Positions 14,106-23,122 of a stretch of 64,000 nucleotides of DNA are shown piece after piece. The position numbers were made by a program, and so were the translations under genes. The notes beneath the pieces were generated by a model that was given only the letters and a program-made list of their open reading frames with translations, did not search any database and was not told the origin of the DNA. The DNA lies in NCBI RefSeq assembly GCF_009745975.1, contig NZ_WHOL01000126.1, positions 92,423 to 156,422 of the forward strand, in the 5' to 3' direction. The DNA comes from Actinokineospora pegani. GTDB taxonomy: Bacteria > Actinomycetota > Actinomycetes > Mycobacteriales > Pseudonocardiaceae. The first letter of the stretch is position 1. Each line of letters starts with the position of its first letter.

Positions 14106-14741
14106 TCACGCCCTGGCCGCGACCCAGGAGAGCTGTCCCATCGCCCAGACCGCGCCGATCGCCAGCGTCGCGGACCCGGCCGCGCCGCCGCTCATCGCCC
14201 ACAGATCACCTGCCGCGAGCGCGATCCCGGCCACCGCGCAGGCCACCGCCCGCCGCTGGTCGCCGCCGCGGCGGAAGTGCCGCGCGAGCACGAGGCAGGC
14301 GGCGGCGAGGGCCAGGAACGAGACCGATCCCGCGGCCATGTGCCCCACGCTGTGCCACGACATCGCGGTGGGCGCGCCCGCGCCGACCGGGAAGCCGTTC
14401 CCGGGGTCCATCGGCAGCAGGCCCGCGGCGACGAAACCGAGGCCAGCGACCAAGACCAGCCGCGCCGTCCACCGGCTGCCGACGGCGGCGCGCAGGCCGA
14501 CCGCGCCGAAGGCCATGAGCGCGCCCGCCGCGACGAAGTTGGCCACCTGCAGCCAGCCGAGCGAGCCGGTGGCGAGCTGGCTGAGCGGGTGCCGGGTGAG
14601 GTCGAAGCCCTCGCGGGTGGCGGCCTGGGCGAGCGAGACACCCGCCCAGAGCGGGGCGGCGGCGGCGAGACCGGCCAGCGAACGGGTGGTCGTGCCGCGG
14701 GTGGCGGGCCGAGCTGCGGGAACGGCGGTCTGAGTGGTCAT
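14106..14741 (-). CDS. DUF998 integral membrane protein
   Basis: A 211-residue membrane protein with about six hydrophobic helices and the DUF998 hallmark DLTRHPLSQLATGSLGW after the first helix, plus SWHSVGHMAAG between later helices. Function unknown. The ATG at 14741 follows GGAAGG at a good distance. It is transcribed away from the YCII-sigma factor pair, with a 37-bp palindrome between them. DUF998 proteins are often controlled by nearby sigma factors or TetR proteins, so it is a candidate target. Confidence 0.88.
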   Translation of the reverse strand: MTTQTAVPAARPATRGTTTRSLAGLAAAAPLWAGVSLAQAATREGFDLTRHPLSQLATGSLGWLQVANFVAAGALMAFGAVGLRAAVGSRWTARLVLVAGLGFVAAGLLPMDPGNGFPVGAGAPTAMSWHSVGHMAAGSVSFLALAAACLVLARHFRRGGDQRRAVACAVAGIALAAGDLWAMSGGAAGSATLAIGAVWAMGQLSWVAARA

Positions 14742-14786
14742 CGTGGTGCCTTCCTGTCCGGGGATCTGCACCACCGTCGTCCGGGT

Positions 14787-14823
14787 CCTATGACAGGGAA
14801 CGCACGGCGTTCCCTGTCATAGG
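14787..14823. promoter_or_regulatory. Perfect 37-bp palindrome between divergent genes
   Basis: CCTATGACAGGGAACGC and its exact complement surround three bases (ACG). Outside the arms, CGTCG (14775-14779) and CGACG (14831-14835) are placed symmetrically, each ten bases beyond a TGTCAT. Each strand also shows GGGAAC, an ECF-like -35 word. It sits 46 bases before the DUF998 start and 60 bases before the YCII start, so a shared operator or divergent ECF promoter pair fits better than a terminator. That role is inference. Confidence 0.75.
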
Positions 14824-14882
14824 CTTCGTTCGACGTGTGGGTGTTCGGCGGAGATGCCGCCGGTTGGCGAGAGGCACATGCG

Positions 14883-15206
14883 ATGCGGTTCCTGATGATG
14901 TCGATGGCGGACGACTCCACCCCCGACGAGGCGCTGATGGTGGAGATGGGCAGGTTCGTCGAGGAGCTGTCGGCGGCGGGCGTGCTGCTGGCCACCGGCG
15001 GGCTGGACCCGGCGGCGATCGAGGTGCGCTCGGTCGGCGACGAGATCACCGTGACCGACGGCCCGTTCACCGAGGCCAAGGAGGCGGTGGGCGGGTTCGC
15101 GCTGGTCGAGGTGGGCTCGGTGGCCGAGGCCGTGGAGCTGACCAGGCGGTTCCGGCGGATCGTGGGTGACGGCAAGAGCGTCATCCAGCAGGTCTTCGGG
15201 CCGTGA
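14883..15206 (+). CDS. YCII/DGPF-domain protein paired with ECF sigma factor
   Basis: A 107-residue YCII-related protein with the TVTDGPFTEAKEAVGGF motif that names DGPF proteins. Such proteins are encoded next to ECF42-group sigma factors and are thought to be targets or modulators of the sigma factor. Their biochemical role is not settled. The ATG at 14883 (MRFLMMSMADD) is the family-like start. The stop overlaps the sigma factor GTG (GTGA), so the two are translationally coupled. Confidence 0.93.
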   Translation: MRFLMMSMADDSTPDEALMVEMGRFVEELSAAGVLLATGGLDPAAIEVRSVGDEITVTDGPFTEAKEAVGGFALVEVGSVAEAVELTRRFRRIVGDGKSVIQQVFGP

Positions 15207-17092
15207 CCGACGCCCGCCGGGCGGTCGAGGCGGTCTGGCGGCTGGAGTCCGCGGCGGTGGTCGGCGCGCTCACCCGGGTGGTGCGCGACGTCGGCCTCGC
15301 CGAGGAGCTGGCCCAGGACGCCCTGGTCGCGGCGCTGGCGCAGTGGCCGCGCGCGGGCGTGCCGGACAACCCGGCCGCCTGGTTGGTCACCACCGCCAAG
15401 CGCCGCGCCGTCGACCACCTCCGGCGGTCCCAGCGGTTCGAGCGGGCCAAGGAGCACCTGGTCCGACCCGACCAGGTGGCCGGGTCGGACCAGGACGAGC
15501 GGGACGGGCCCGAGCAGGACGACGCGCTGCGCCTCGTCCTGCTCACCTGCCACCCGGTGCTGCCCACCGAGCAGCGGGTGGCGCTGACCCTGCGGCTGGC
15601 CGCGGGCCTGTCCACCGCCGAGATCGCCCGCGCCTTCCTCACCACCGAGCAGCGCGTCGCGCAGCGCGTGGCGGCGGCCAAGGAGGCGCTGGCCGGGGTG
15701 CCGGTCGAGGTGCCGCGGGACGCCTCGGACCGGGTCGCCGCCGCCCTGGAGGTCGTCTACCTGACCTTCAACGAGGGCTACTCGGCCACTGCGGGCGACG
15801 ACCTGGTGCGCCTGGACCTGGTCCGGGAGGCGCTGCGGCTGGGCAGGCTGCTCGCCGCGCTCGCCCCGCGCGAGCCGGAGGCGCACGGGCTGGTGGCGCT
15901 GATGGAGGTCCAGGCGTCGCGGTCGGCGGCGCGCACCGACGCGACCGGGGCGCCGGTGGCGCTGCACGAGCAGAACCGGGGCCGGTGGGACCGGCTGCTG
16001 ATCCGGCGCGGGTTCGCCGCGCTGCTGCGCGCCCGCGACCTCGGCCGACCACCGGGCCCGTACGTGCTGCAGGCGGCGATCGCGGTCTGCCACGCGCAGG
16101 CGGCCACGGCCGAGGACACCGACTGGGCCAGGATCGCCGGGCTCTACGACGCGCTGGCGCGGCTGCTGCCCACCCCGGTCGTGCGGCTCAACCAGGCCGT
16201 CGCGGTGGGCATGGCGCGGGGCCCCGCCGCCGGGCTGGACCTCGTCGACCGGCTGCGCGCCGAGCCGTCGCTGCGCGACTACCACCCGCTGCCCGTCGTG
16301 CGCGCGGACCTGCTGGCCCGGCTGGACCGGCCCGCCGAGGCCCGCGTCGAGTTCGAGCGCGCCGCGGCGCTGACCGACAACGCCGCCGAGCGCGAGTTCC
16401 TGCTGCGCCGCGCCGCCGACCTCCCGGCCCAGGACCGCCCCACCCTGGGCGCCAGCGCCGAGGCCTTCCTGGCGCGCACGGACCTGGACCCGACGACGTT
16501 GCGCTCCTACGGCCAGACGCTGGGCCGGGTGCGCCGCGCGCTCGGCGACGCCCACGCCGTCGACGCGATCACCGCCGGGGACCTCGCCCGGGTGTTCGAC
16601 CTCGCGTGGTCGGGCGCGGCGGCCAAGACCTGGAACCGGCACCGCTCGGCGGTGCGCACGTTCTGCGCGTGGGCGCGGCTGCCCGACCTGGCCGCCGACA
16701 TCGACCGCAGACCCGAGACGCGCCACCGGGTCCCGCCGCTGCCACCGGAGCAGGTGGCTCTGTTGTGGACGTTGGACGTCCCGGTGCGGGAGCTGGCGCT
16801 GTGGCGGATGCTGCACGAGTCCGGGGCGCCGGTGCGCACGGTGCTCGCGCTCGACGTCGAGCAGCTCGACCTCGACGACCGCAGGGCCCGCGTCGGCGCG
16901 GGGTGGGTGTCCTGGCGCGCGGCGACCGCGCGGCTGCTGGCGGAGCTGTTGGCGGGCAGGGAGACCGGGCCGGTCTTCCGCTCCAGGCGCGGGGCGGGGC
17001 GGTTGTCCTACGAGCGGGCGGAGTCGCTGTTCAAGCAGGCGACCAAGGCGCTGGACCCGGCGGGGCTCACGCTGGGCCTGCTGCGCCGGTGA
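15203..17092 (+). CDS. ECF42-like sigma factor fused to truncated tyrosine-recombinase-like domain
   Basis: Of 629 residues, the first 410 or so are a complete ECF42-type factor: sigma-2 (ALTRVVRDVGLAEELAQDAL), sigma-4 (TEQRVALTLRLAAGLSTAEI) and the long SnoaL/TPR-like tail with YLTFNEGYSA and a VRLNQAVA repeat. Residues ~413-629 resemble an actinobacterial phage-type integrase: a core-binding domain (TTLRSYGQTLGRVRRALGD; TWNRHRSAVRTFCAWA) and the start of a catalytic domain (LWRMLHESGAPVRTVLALDV; RLSYERAESLFKQATKAL). The first catalytic Arg is replaced (GAPVR rather than GxR), and the protein stops at LTLGLLRR, where HxLRH would begin. No Tyr nucleophile remains, so recombinase activity is unlikely; a DNA-binding role is possible. 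It overlaps the convergent TetR gene by 26 bases. Confidence 0.9.
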   Translation: MTDARRAVEAVWRLESAAVVGALTRVVRDVGLAEELAQDALVAALAQWPRAGVPDNPAAWLVTTAKRRAVDHLRRSQRFERAKEHLVRPDQVAGSDQDERDGPEQDDALRLVLLTCHPVLPTEQRVALTLRLAAGLSTAEIARAFLTTEQRVAQRVAAAKEALAGVPVEVPRDASDRVAAALEVVYLTFNEGYSATAGDDLVRLDLVREALRLGRLLAALAPREPEAHGLVALMEVQASRSAARTDATGAPVALHEQNRGRWDRLLIRRGFAALLRARDLGRPPGPYVLQAAIAVCHAQAATAEDTDWARIAGLYDALARLLPTPVVRLNQAVAVGMARGPAAGLDLVDRLRAEPSLRDYHPLPVVRADLLARLDRPAEARVEFERAAALTDNAAEREFLLRRAADLPAQDRPTLGASAEAFLARTDLDPTTLRSYGQTLGRVRRALGDAHAVDAITAGDLARVFDLAWSGAAAKTWNRHRSAVRTFCAWARLPDLAADIDRRPETRHRVPPLPPEQVALLWTLDVPVRELALWRMLHESGAPVRTVLALDVEQLDLDDRRARVGAGWVSWRAATARLLAELLAGRETGPVFRSRRGAGRLSYERAESLFKQATKALDPAGLTLGLLRR

Positions 17093-17762
17093 CCGCGCCG
17101 GGGGCGTGCTCGAAGAACAGCATCGCCGTGTCGGTGAACATCGGCTCGAGGTCCGGCAGCGCCTGCGCCCCCTTGGTGTGCAGGCAGTCGCGGATGCGTT
17201 CGGCGGTGCCGCCGATGTAGAGGTCGAACGTCGCGGGGGTCACCTGCCGCACCCTCGGGTCGCTCTCGCGGGCGCGGCGGTGCAGCTCGCGGAAGACGTC
17301 GGCGAAGGCCCGGTTGACCGCCGTGGTGCGCTTGACCAGCTCCGGGCCCGCGCACAGCGTCTCGATGTAGAGCGACCACGCGGCGTCGGGGTCCTCGGCC
17401 AGCGCGGCCAGGAAAGCCCGCCAGGACAGGCTGACCCGGGCGGGCCAGTCGTCGCGGGCGACGGGGTCGAGCACGTCGCGCAGGGAGACGCTGACATCGG
17501 CGACAGCGGTGTCGAACGCGGCCAGGAAGCACGCCTCTTTGTCGTGGAAGTGCTCGTAGAAGGTGCGGCGCGACACCTCGGCCCCGCCGACGATGTCGTT
17601 GACCGTGGAGTTGGCGTAGCCCTTGGCGGCCACGACCCGCAGCACGGCCCCGATCAACCTGCCCCGCTGGGAGGCGGCGATGTCCTCCCGGCTGAGCCCG
17701 TGCCTGCCCCTGGGTAACTGGCGCGGGCTGCGCCCAGCCTGGCTGGAATTCACGCTGCGCAC
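17067..17762 (-). CDS. TetR family transcriptional regulator
   Basis: A 231-residue TetR regulator. The helix-turn-helix lies at about residues 32-75 (VVAAKGYANSTVNDIVGGAE, then VSRRTFYEHFHDKEACFL). The C-terminal ligand domain is helical and unassigned. It starts at a GTG (17762) and is divergent from a secreted-protein gene. A 24-bp palindrome in the shared region is a likely binding site for it. Its last codons overlap the sigma-recombinase gene on the other strand. Confidence 0.93.
   Translation of the reverse strand: MRSVNSSQAGRSPRQLPRGRHGLSREDIAASQRGRLIGAVLRVVAAKGYANSTVNDIVGGAEVSRRTFYEHFHDKEACFLAAFDTAVADVSVSLRDVLDPVARDDWPARVSLSWRAFLAALAEDPDAAWSLYIETLCAGPELVKRTTAVNRAFADVFRELHRRARESDPRVRQVTPATFDLYIGGTAERIRDCLHTKGAQALPDLEPMFTDTAMLFFEHAPGAVTGAAGPA

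Positions 17763-19416: not shown

Positions 19417-23122
<3,706 letters not shown>

Follow-up and report, generated by a model that had tools for sequence, protein, structure and literature searches.

The window analyzed here is a stretch of 64,000 nucleotides from Actinokineospora pegani (contig NZ_WHOL01000126.1), and the gene in question, on its plus strand at positions 15203-17092, encodes an ECF42-type sigma factor that runs on into a truncated, tyrosine-recombinase-derived domain (629 amino acids, GTG start; recognized by its open reading frame, Pfam matches and the conservation of the fusion). The ECF42-type part comprises residues 1-405 and harbors sigma region 2 (residues 18-78, positions 15254-15436; PF04542, Sigma70_r2, E 1.3e-11), sigma region 4 (residues 112-163, positions 15536-15691; PF08281, Sigma70_r4_2, E 1.3e-8), and DUF6596, part of the ECF42 C-terminal region (residues 177-277, positions 15731-16033; PF20239, E 8e-33); TPR_2 stayed below the cut-off in the Pfam search (E 0.055). 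The integrase-derived extension, residues 413-629, consists of a core-binding, SAM-like domain that contains the TWNRHRSAVRTF helix (residues 415-495, positions 16445-16687; identified by PF02899, invariant residues and the predicted local distance difference test, pLDDT), and of the first half of a catalytic domain, which ends at the box II position with its catalytic residues lost (residues 496-629, positions 16688-17089; alignment to intact integrases, pLDDT 79-94).

A YCII/DGPF-family gene (positions 14883-15206, plus strand; PF03795, E 6.8e-11, and ATG position) overlaps the fusion gene by 4 bases, and a divergent DUF998 gene (positions 14106-14774, minus strand, start more likely at 14741; PF06197, E 1.2e-31) is a putative second target. 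Like other ECF42 sigma factors, the protein combines regions 2 and 4 with the DUF6596/TPR-like C-terminal region and is encoded downstream of an adjoining YCII gene in the same operon, and by sequence and operon structure it classifies as an ECF42 member with an additional domain. Unlike them, it does not end after the TPR-like region, and instead gains ~217 residues of recombinase-derived sequence. Twenty loci of unfused paralogues gave no integrase match and align to about residue 405-411 of the query at most.

The integrase-derived extension

The match of PF02899 (Phage_int_SAM_1) covers residues 428-491, with E 2.5e-7 for the whole protein and 4.5e-8 for the tail alone (31-34 bits vs a cut-off of 22.3), and the PHROG model phrog_1, annotated "integrase", matches the tail at E 9.8e-17 (profile positions 180-388 of 611). 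NCBIfam Xer models match the tail weakly, far under their cut-offs, and a phmmer search against PDB sequences gave no match up to E 1. Alignment to intact relatives shows that the window protein is without the box I Arg and the beta-hairpin Lys, and that it stops at the alignment column where HxLRH begins, with the box II, box III and Tyr residues absent. The core-binding domain and the catalytic-domain fold of a tyrosine recombinase can therefore be recognized, the latter in its N-terminal half only, and none of the catalytic residues (Arg, Lys, His-x-x-Arg, His/Trp, Tyr) is left in the window copy. Judged by these residues, the fusion protein would not be a recombinase, and DNA strand exchange at a core site is expected to be absent. 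The window copy is also missing an ~18-residue loop of the other aligned fusions. Residues T476, W477, N478, R479 and H480 are invariant across 40 aligned fusions. The ~370 bases 3' of the stop, in the window copy and 44 relatives, yielded three chance-level matches to the missing integrase half (best E 0.19), and a relic of that half behind the stop was rejected on this result.

The extension is predicted with high confidence (AlphaFold2 on 40 fusions; pLDDT 92-97 for residues 411-500 and 79-97 over 411-629; whole protein pLDDT 85.7, predicted template modeling score 0.71). Foldseek returned five matches with E <= 0.001, all to XerA or the Tn1549 integrase (best 1.8e-4), and lambda integrase-DNA complexes rank below these five.

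Within Actinokineospora, 10 of 16 genomes carry the fusion (E 6.5e-46 or better), and the remaining six congeners have only unfused ECF42 genes, the extension being absent. A scan of public genomes gave 23 loci, of which 21 are single-frame fusions, one is a two-frame fusion (L035; here and below, L, G and C numbers are our labels for loci, genomes and contigs) and one is a stand-alone recombinase (L039). Host genera are Amycolatopsis, Saccharopolyspora, Solihabitans, Actinomadura, Thermomonospora, Streptosporangium, Microtetraspora, Actinoplanes, Actinorhabdospora, and Streptomyces; the fusion spans five or more actinomycete families and is also found on plasmids of Streptomyces and Embleya. 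Across the order, 36 of 397 genomes match at E <= 1e-15, and 16 of these were counted as fusions and the rest as stand-alone, with unfetched loci classed by frame length (the frame in G246 is short, 375 amino acids). Most copies end at most about 20 residues from a ...TL(R/G/H)xL motif standing at box II, and because the sampled truncated fusions have a nearly identical end, the truncation is an old, shared state and not an accident of this genome.

Truncated fusions have lost the hairpin Lys, the box II Arg, box III and the Tyr, and most have lost the box I Arg, which persists in L025 and L028; the box II His is kept in L030, L032, L036, and L038. A second class (L167, L168, L174, L177, and L189) comprises ECF42 fusions with a complete integrase domain, in which HRLRH and SGH are kept, the Tyr is replaced by Phe in four and by Leu in one (L189), and the box I Arg is Pro in 5/5. 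In the 22 closest pairs, which share rows and so are non-independent, dN/dS (the ratio of nonsynonymous to synonymous substitution rates) is 0.00-0.71 for the core-binding part, 0.16-0.49 for the half-catalytic part, and 0.07-0.48 for the two sigma-side parts; L035 and L080 were left out of the structure and dN/dS sets.

The sequence-only reading had located and described the fused frame correctly, with the extension behind a complete ECF42-type protein, and the loss of the box I Arg, the end at box II and the want of a nucleophile Tyr that it reported are confirmed by the alignment to intact relatives. The core-binding match that it anticipated for residues 413-629 was obtained with PF02899 and phrog_1, the structure prediction indicates a confidently folded, integrase-like extension, and dN/dS in close pairs supports the purifying selection it raised. 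Conservation of the fusion, a further point that it raised, holds in frame for 10/16 congeners and for other families, but not for the other 6/16. Its inference that an integrase gene fused behind the sigma gene agrees with an extension that is in frame, conserved, and grouped with intact integrases (see below).

Two further loci were observed. In Actinoplanes sp. KI2 (L035:2688-4696), the sigma and integrase parts lie in different frames, through an assembly error or in a broken gene. On Streptomyces anulatus plasmids (L097:1-529 and L103:1-679), type I-E cas1e and cas2e genes are found close to the operon of the fused sigma factor.

The inverted repeat at the fusion promoters

A perfect inverted repeat, CCTATGACAGGGAACGC-ACG-GCGTTCCCTGTCATAGG (positions 14787-14823), has 17-bp arms and a 3-bp center and can be read as two recombinase-like half-sites, TATGACAGGGAA and TTCCCTGTCATA, with 9 bp between them (the spacer being counted between 12-bp half-sites). 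The right half-site (positions 14810-14821, plus strand) falls on the -35 position of the YCII-sigma promoter, whose putative -10 element, GTTCGACG, occupies positions 14828-14835 (plus strand), and a mirror-image half-site and -10 (TTCCCTGTCATAGGACCCGGACGACG; positions 14775-14800, minus strand) face the DUF998 gene. The consensus of this palindrome, ATGTGACAGGGAA-N8-TTCCCTGTCACAT, with a half-site of 13 bp, lies in front of the YCII gene with which these operons begin. With at most 3 mismatches allowed per arm, both arms are present in 43 of the 54 truncated-class loci, but in none of the 20 unfused ECF42 loci and none of 1080 shuffled sequences, and the spacer between 12-bp arms is 8 in 35, 9 in 7, and 10 in 1 of the 43. 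These counts leave out L118 (same as L017), L195 (upstream as L031), L201, and L205 (no sigma part), and L190-L194 and L204 are counted apart from the 54. The two arms also have more changes in common than chance would give (8 vs a shuffled mean of 2.8, with 2/5000 shuffles as high), in a test inflated by the kinship of the sequences. With two inverted arms of ~11-13 bp around a 6-8 bp center, the arrangement resembles the tyrosine-recombinase core site, described in PMC5357621 as two ~11 bp half-sites around 6-8 bp. The suggestion of the sequence-only reading that the extension may redirect the factor to recombinase-like sites finds support in its computable part, namely a recombinase-core-like palindrome in the promoter region of the fusion.

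A strict form of the palindrome, GACAGGGAA-N7-10-TTCCCTGTC, is present in 11 of 397 genomes of the order, once in each and always at the fusion locus, and in 0 of the 381 fusion-free genomes of the order; the reversed-pattern control gave 0. A class-wide scan of 394 genomes returned eight strict sites in seven genomes, six of them at fusion loci; in the two elsewhere (G624:C64 and G689:C50) the spacer is 7 bp, and inspection showed no ECF-type -10 at either.

The divergent genes also differ between fused and unfused loci: a DUF998 gene diverges from the operon in 32/48 fused and 0/20 unfused loci, and a DUF1801 gene takes the divergent place at L022, L028, and L111. A YCII match is common to both (48/48 fused, one a duplicate; 20/20 unfused). 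An exact search for the half-site with a -10 in 36 chosen genomes found the pattern in 20 of the 25 genomes with the fusion and in 1 of the 11 without it. Four of the sites in fusion-bearing genomes are remote and precede DUF998 (G003, G005, and G008) or DUF1801 (G014); all four occur in congeners whose fused locus is one-armed, and the DUF998 genes there are relocated. At the level of sequence, these remote sites are an independent check on the half-site as a putative target-promoter element, and most sites detected belong either to the promoter of the operon itself or to candidate DUF998 or DUF1801 targets.

The promoters themselves fall into three kinds. Unfused ECF42 promoters are of the type TGTCGA-N-CGTTCGACG in 17/20 loci, TGTCGA being what we take to be the ECF42 -35 motif. 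TGTCGA is found in 1/54 truncated-class loci and 4/6 full-length-type loci. Truncated-class promoters thus lack the TGTCGA and CG(A/T) pairing of ECF42 targets; the -10 of the unfused type remains, and a recombinase-like half-site stands on the -35 position, the right half-site starting 21-22 nt before the -10 in 50/51 loci. Full-length-type promoters were studied at six loci, those of the five full-length proteins and L204 (whose protein is truncated and whose sigma part groups with them). Their half-sites lie 42-55 bp upstream of GTCGA (GTCTG in L194) in a canonical-type promoter, as two direct repeats 17-18 bp apart in 5/6 and as a single copy in 1/6, and 4/6 pass a strict canonical-promoter test. 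Because the half-site is here far upstream of the -35, it is not simply a -35 element, and it goes with the integrase domain.

Integrase relatives and descent of the fusion

Intact stand-alone relatives retain the catalytic residues in the alignment (L165 was checked separately; L001, L014, L015, L039-L049, and L070, duplicates or a XerC, were left out). In a maximum-likelihood tree of 81 rows, 44 truncated fusions form one group (96/95) and the five full-length fusions another (100/100); support for the two groups together is 96/74, and for both with the intact integrase L165 it is 100/96 (L013, L086, L166, L169, L170, L175, L183, and nine near-copies were left out). The branch of the window copy is long (0.43). 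A tree of the sigma parts also places 51 truncated-type and five full-length fusions together, with support of 0.996 without L125 and 0.39 with it (L018, L019, L026, L032, L103, L118, and rows with a short sigma part left out), and the sigma part of the fusions groups with ECF42 paralogues of the same genome. From these trees we infer the order intact integrase, full-length dead fusion, truncated fusion.

L165, the nearest intact integrase in the tree, has on its contig (in G624), about 0.9 kb upstream, a perfect ATGTGACAGGGAA-N7-TTCCCTGTCACAT palindrome, both 13-bp half-sites of which are identical to the fusion consensus; by inspection, no CGWCG -10 stands at the usual distance. Related palindromes with TGTGACA(C/G)AGAA-like arms precede L098, L163, L166, and L081, and more distant intact relatives have CCGCAGA- or ACCGGATAA-type arms before the gene. 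Near several intact genes the arms measure 12-13 bp, and the spacer is 7 bp for L098, L163, L165, and L166. Actinomycete plasmid and chromosomal tyrosine integrases of the L098, L165 and L163 type thus share with the fusion the core-binding and N-terminal half-catalytic sequence and half-sites that are identical (L165) or close (L098, L163), whereas they stand alone, retain Arg, Lys, HxLRH, (S/G)xH, and Tyr, and have the 7 bp spacer.

An inverted-repeat scan of 19 stand-alone rows (400 bases, 100 shuffles each) contradicts such a palindrome as a general rule beside intact integrases. The best repeat was reached by 0/100 shuffles for L085, L086 (of another, GC-rich kind), L092, L093, L094, and L098, by 1 for L081, 5 for L082, 9 for L090, 22 for L101, 34 for L013, and 39-100 for the rest. 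No clear palindrome was found for L084, L160, L161, and L162, nor within 400 bases of L165, where it lies further up. In the genus of the window, a degraded-looking stand-alone integrase (L013:1405-2826, in G012) has an imperfect CCGGATAAT-type palindrome before the gene, not significant in the shuffle test (34/100).

A phage origin was also considered and rejected, as neither source gave a match: tblastn returned nothing up to E 1e-5 among 50,697 phage records, and neither a relative of L098 or L165 nor a palindrome was found in viral_contigs.

Two other integrase-related loci deserve mention. Stand-alone half-integrases of one genus (L105:4872-5636, L087, and L090) end at about the box II position of the fusions in three genomes, with a fourth (G059:C2:14094) likely; they are possibly a second domesticated family. 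At L250:137-5426 (G689:C50), an unfused ECF42 gene is apparently split by an ~4.9 kb insertion with a perfect palindrome carrying the fusion's half-site at one end and a half-site and integrase fragment near the other, which suggests that elements of the fusion's integrase family did meet ECF42 genes.

Proposed promoter reading by the fusion protein

In the usual view, bacterial sigma factors recognize promoters with their regions 2 and 4. The extension described here is probably a domesticated DNA-binding domain of a recombinase, which would hold the sigma factor at the promoters it targets by way of the ancestral core half-sites there; by sequence it has the marks of a domesticated recombinase-type regulator, namely lost catalysis, purifying selection, and association with a DNA site. 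In the proposed mechanism, an integrase gene would have fused behind an ECF42 sigma gene and lost catalysis while its DNA-recognition part was kept. The extension would bind the half-site, in most cases with two subunits sharing a palindrome, which would position sigma region 2 on the adjacent GTTCGACG-like -10; both binding and activation by the extension are what we infer. Since the half-site of the truncated class sits where the ECF42 -35 (TGTCGA) would be, the recombinase domain probably either replaces the usual recognition of the -35 there or adds to it, and in full-length-type promoters the half-sites may act as an upstream anchor. The outcome would be autoregulation of the YCII-sigma operon and control of the DUF998 or DUF1801 gene. 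An integrase would thereby have been captured, killed, and trimmed, and its ancestral core half-site would have come to serve the truncated class as a -35-like element and the full-length-type promoters as an upstream anchor. We lean toward regarding these proteins as a sigma class in which promoter reading has partly passed to a third, recombinase-derived DNA-binding domain, sigma factor and activator being one polypeptide.

The palindrome could also be an operator, on which a dimer of the fused protein, lying over two divergent -35 regions, represses its own operon and DUF998; the domain would still read a recombinase half-site, with a negative sign. Dimeric palindromes are typical of operators, the arms here overlap both putative -35 positions, and the canonical TGTCGA is nearly gone in the truncated class. 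However, single half-sites stand before relocated DUF998 and DUF1801 genes at an unchanged distance from a -10, as expected of a promoter element, the half-site to -10 spacing is nearly constant (21-22 nt in 50/51 loci), and the full-length-type half-sites, 42-55 bp upstream of the -35, are beyond the likely occlusion zone. We consider repression of this kind unlikely, and activation by the extension is favored. Less likely again is a palindrome made of two divergent -35 elements read by sigma region 4, the extension serving, say, dimerization or regulation of the TPR region. In most loci a -10-like CGACG indeed stands beyond each arm, roughly as far off as a -10 is from its -35, and the flanking genes are divergent; ECF42 TPR tails have moreover been proposed to act via protein interaction (PMC8999054). 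Yet the identical half-site on the L165 contig lacks such a -10, the half-sites of full-length-type loci lie 42-55 bp upstream of a canonical-type promoter, four loci (L027, L035, L126, and L127) by inspection retain the palindrome without the left -10, and unfused paralogues with a similar region 4 use TGTCGA (17/20). Two -35 elements as the sole reason for the palindrome are disfavored by this same evidence. That the tail is a decaying, functionless integrase remnant is exceedingly improbable: the lost catalytic residues, the missing loop and long branch of the window copy (0.43), and a few broken-looking copies (L035, L080) would fit, but length and end are similar across many families and the DNA site is tightly associated with the fusion in the genomes, and the conserved end, the purifying selection in close pairs and the confident predicted fold led us to reject a decaying pseudogene.

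Several observations nevertheless weigh against a tethering domain. Only half of the catalytic domain is left, whereas recombinases normally grip DNA by both domains, so that the affinity of the half protein is presumptive. Divergence is quicker in the extension than in the sigma-side parts (mean pairwise identity 0.60 and 0.63 for its parts vs 0.69 and 0.76, with 0.22 for the short linker), and some copies look broken (L035, in two frames; L080/G246, with a short frame). The two-armed palindrome is absent from 11/54 truncated-class loci, with the right arm only in L038, L112, L114-L117, and L125, the left only in L020, L119, and L123, and a degenerate left arm in L202. The half-site and -10 pattern missed 5/25 fusion-bearing genomes, matched the fusion-free G083 (with an unusual 8-base gap), and in its reversed control matched once in 36 (G011). 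The palindrome in G689 occurs without a detected fusion, at the insertion-split ECF42 gene beside an integrase fragment. Among intact integrases, L165 is a single case with its palindrome ~900 bp from the gene, many others have no clear palindrome in the 400-base scans, and the spacer has shifted from 7 bp in intact relatives to 8-9 bp.

Passages on ECF42 in PMC8999054, PMC8103513, and PMC6180224 name TPR as the only extension; the truncated fusions differ by a recombinase-like half-site in place of TGTCGA and, at many fused loci, by linkage to DUF998 or DUF1801. The nearest precedent found for dead tyrosine recombinases in transcription is the eukaryotic Crypton-derived regulators (Gcr1, KCTD1, ZMYM2-4), which have a recombinase domain with the catalytic site lost; unlike the present proteins, they are eukaryotic and without a sigma fusion, and the passages on them do not describe an ancestral core half-site kept in target promoters (PMC3212892). 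The T4 MotA/AsiA system (PMC6755090) is alike only in its working: a separate DNA-binding domain reads the MotA box, which takes the place of the -35 while the -10 is an ordinary one. There, two distinct phage proteins, MotA and AsiA, act on sigma-70, whereas the DNA reader of the fusion comes from an integrase and would be within the sigma polypeptide. A term search of the text of a review on recruited mobile-element proteins in prokaryotes did not find "sigma factor" (PMC8987985), and a limited search of open-licence literature by title or abstract start found no description of a sigma factor-integrase fusion.

A recombinase from a mobile element thus appears to have become a third reader of promoters within a sigma factor, and the half-site in its target promoters would be a record of the domain's origin. 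The series that survives in living genomes runs from the unfused sigma factor through a full-length dead fusion, whose half-sites are distal, to a truncated fusion, whose half-site coincides with the -35, and it would allow the steps from a selfish DNA enzyme to a transcription regulator to be tested singly, and targets (DUF998, DUF1801, and YCII) are predicted for a group of sigma factors. Elsewhere in the window, a TetR-family gene on the minus strand (positions 17067-17762) shares 26 bases with the 3' end of the fusion gene, and a long minus-strand frame at positions 19417-21987 is presumably a two-domain terpene synthase of the geosmin/germacradienol type.

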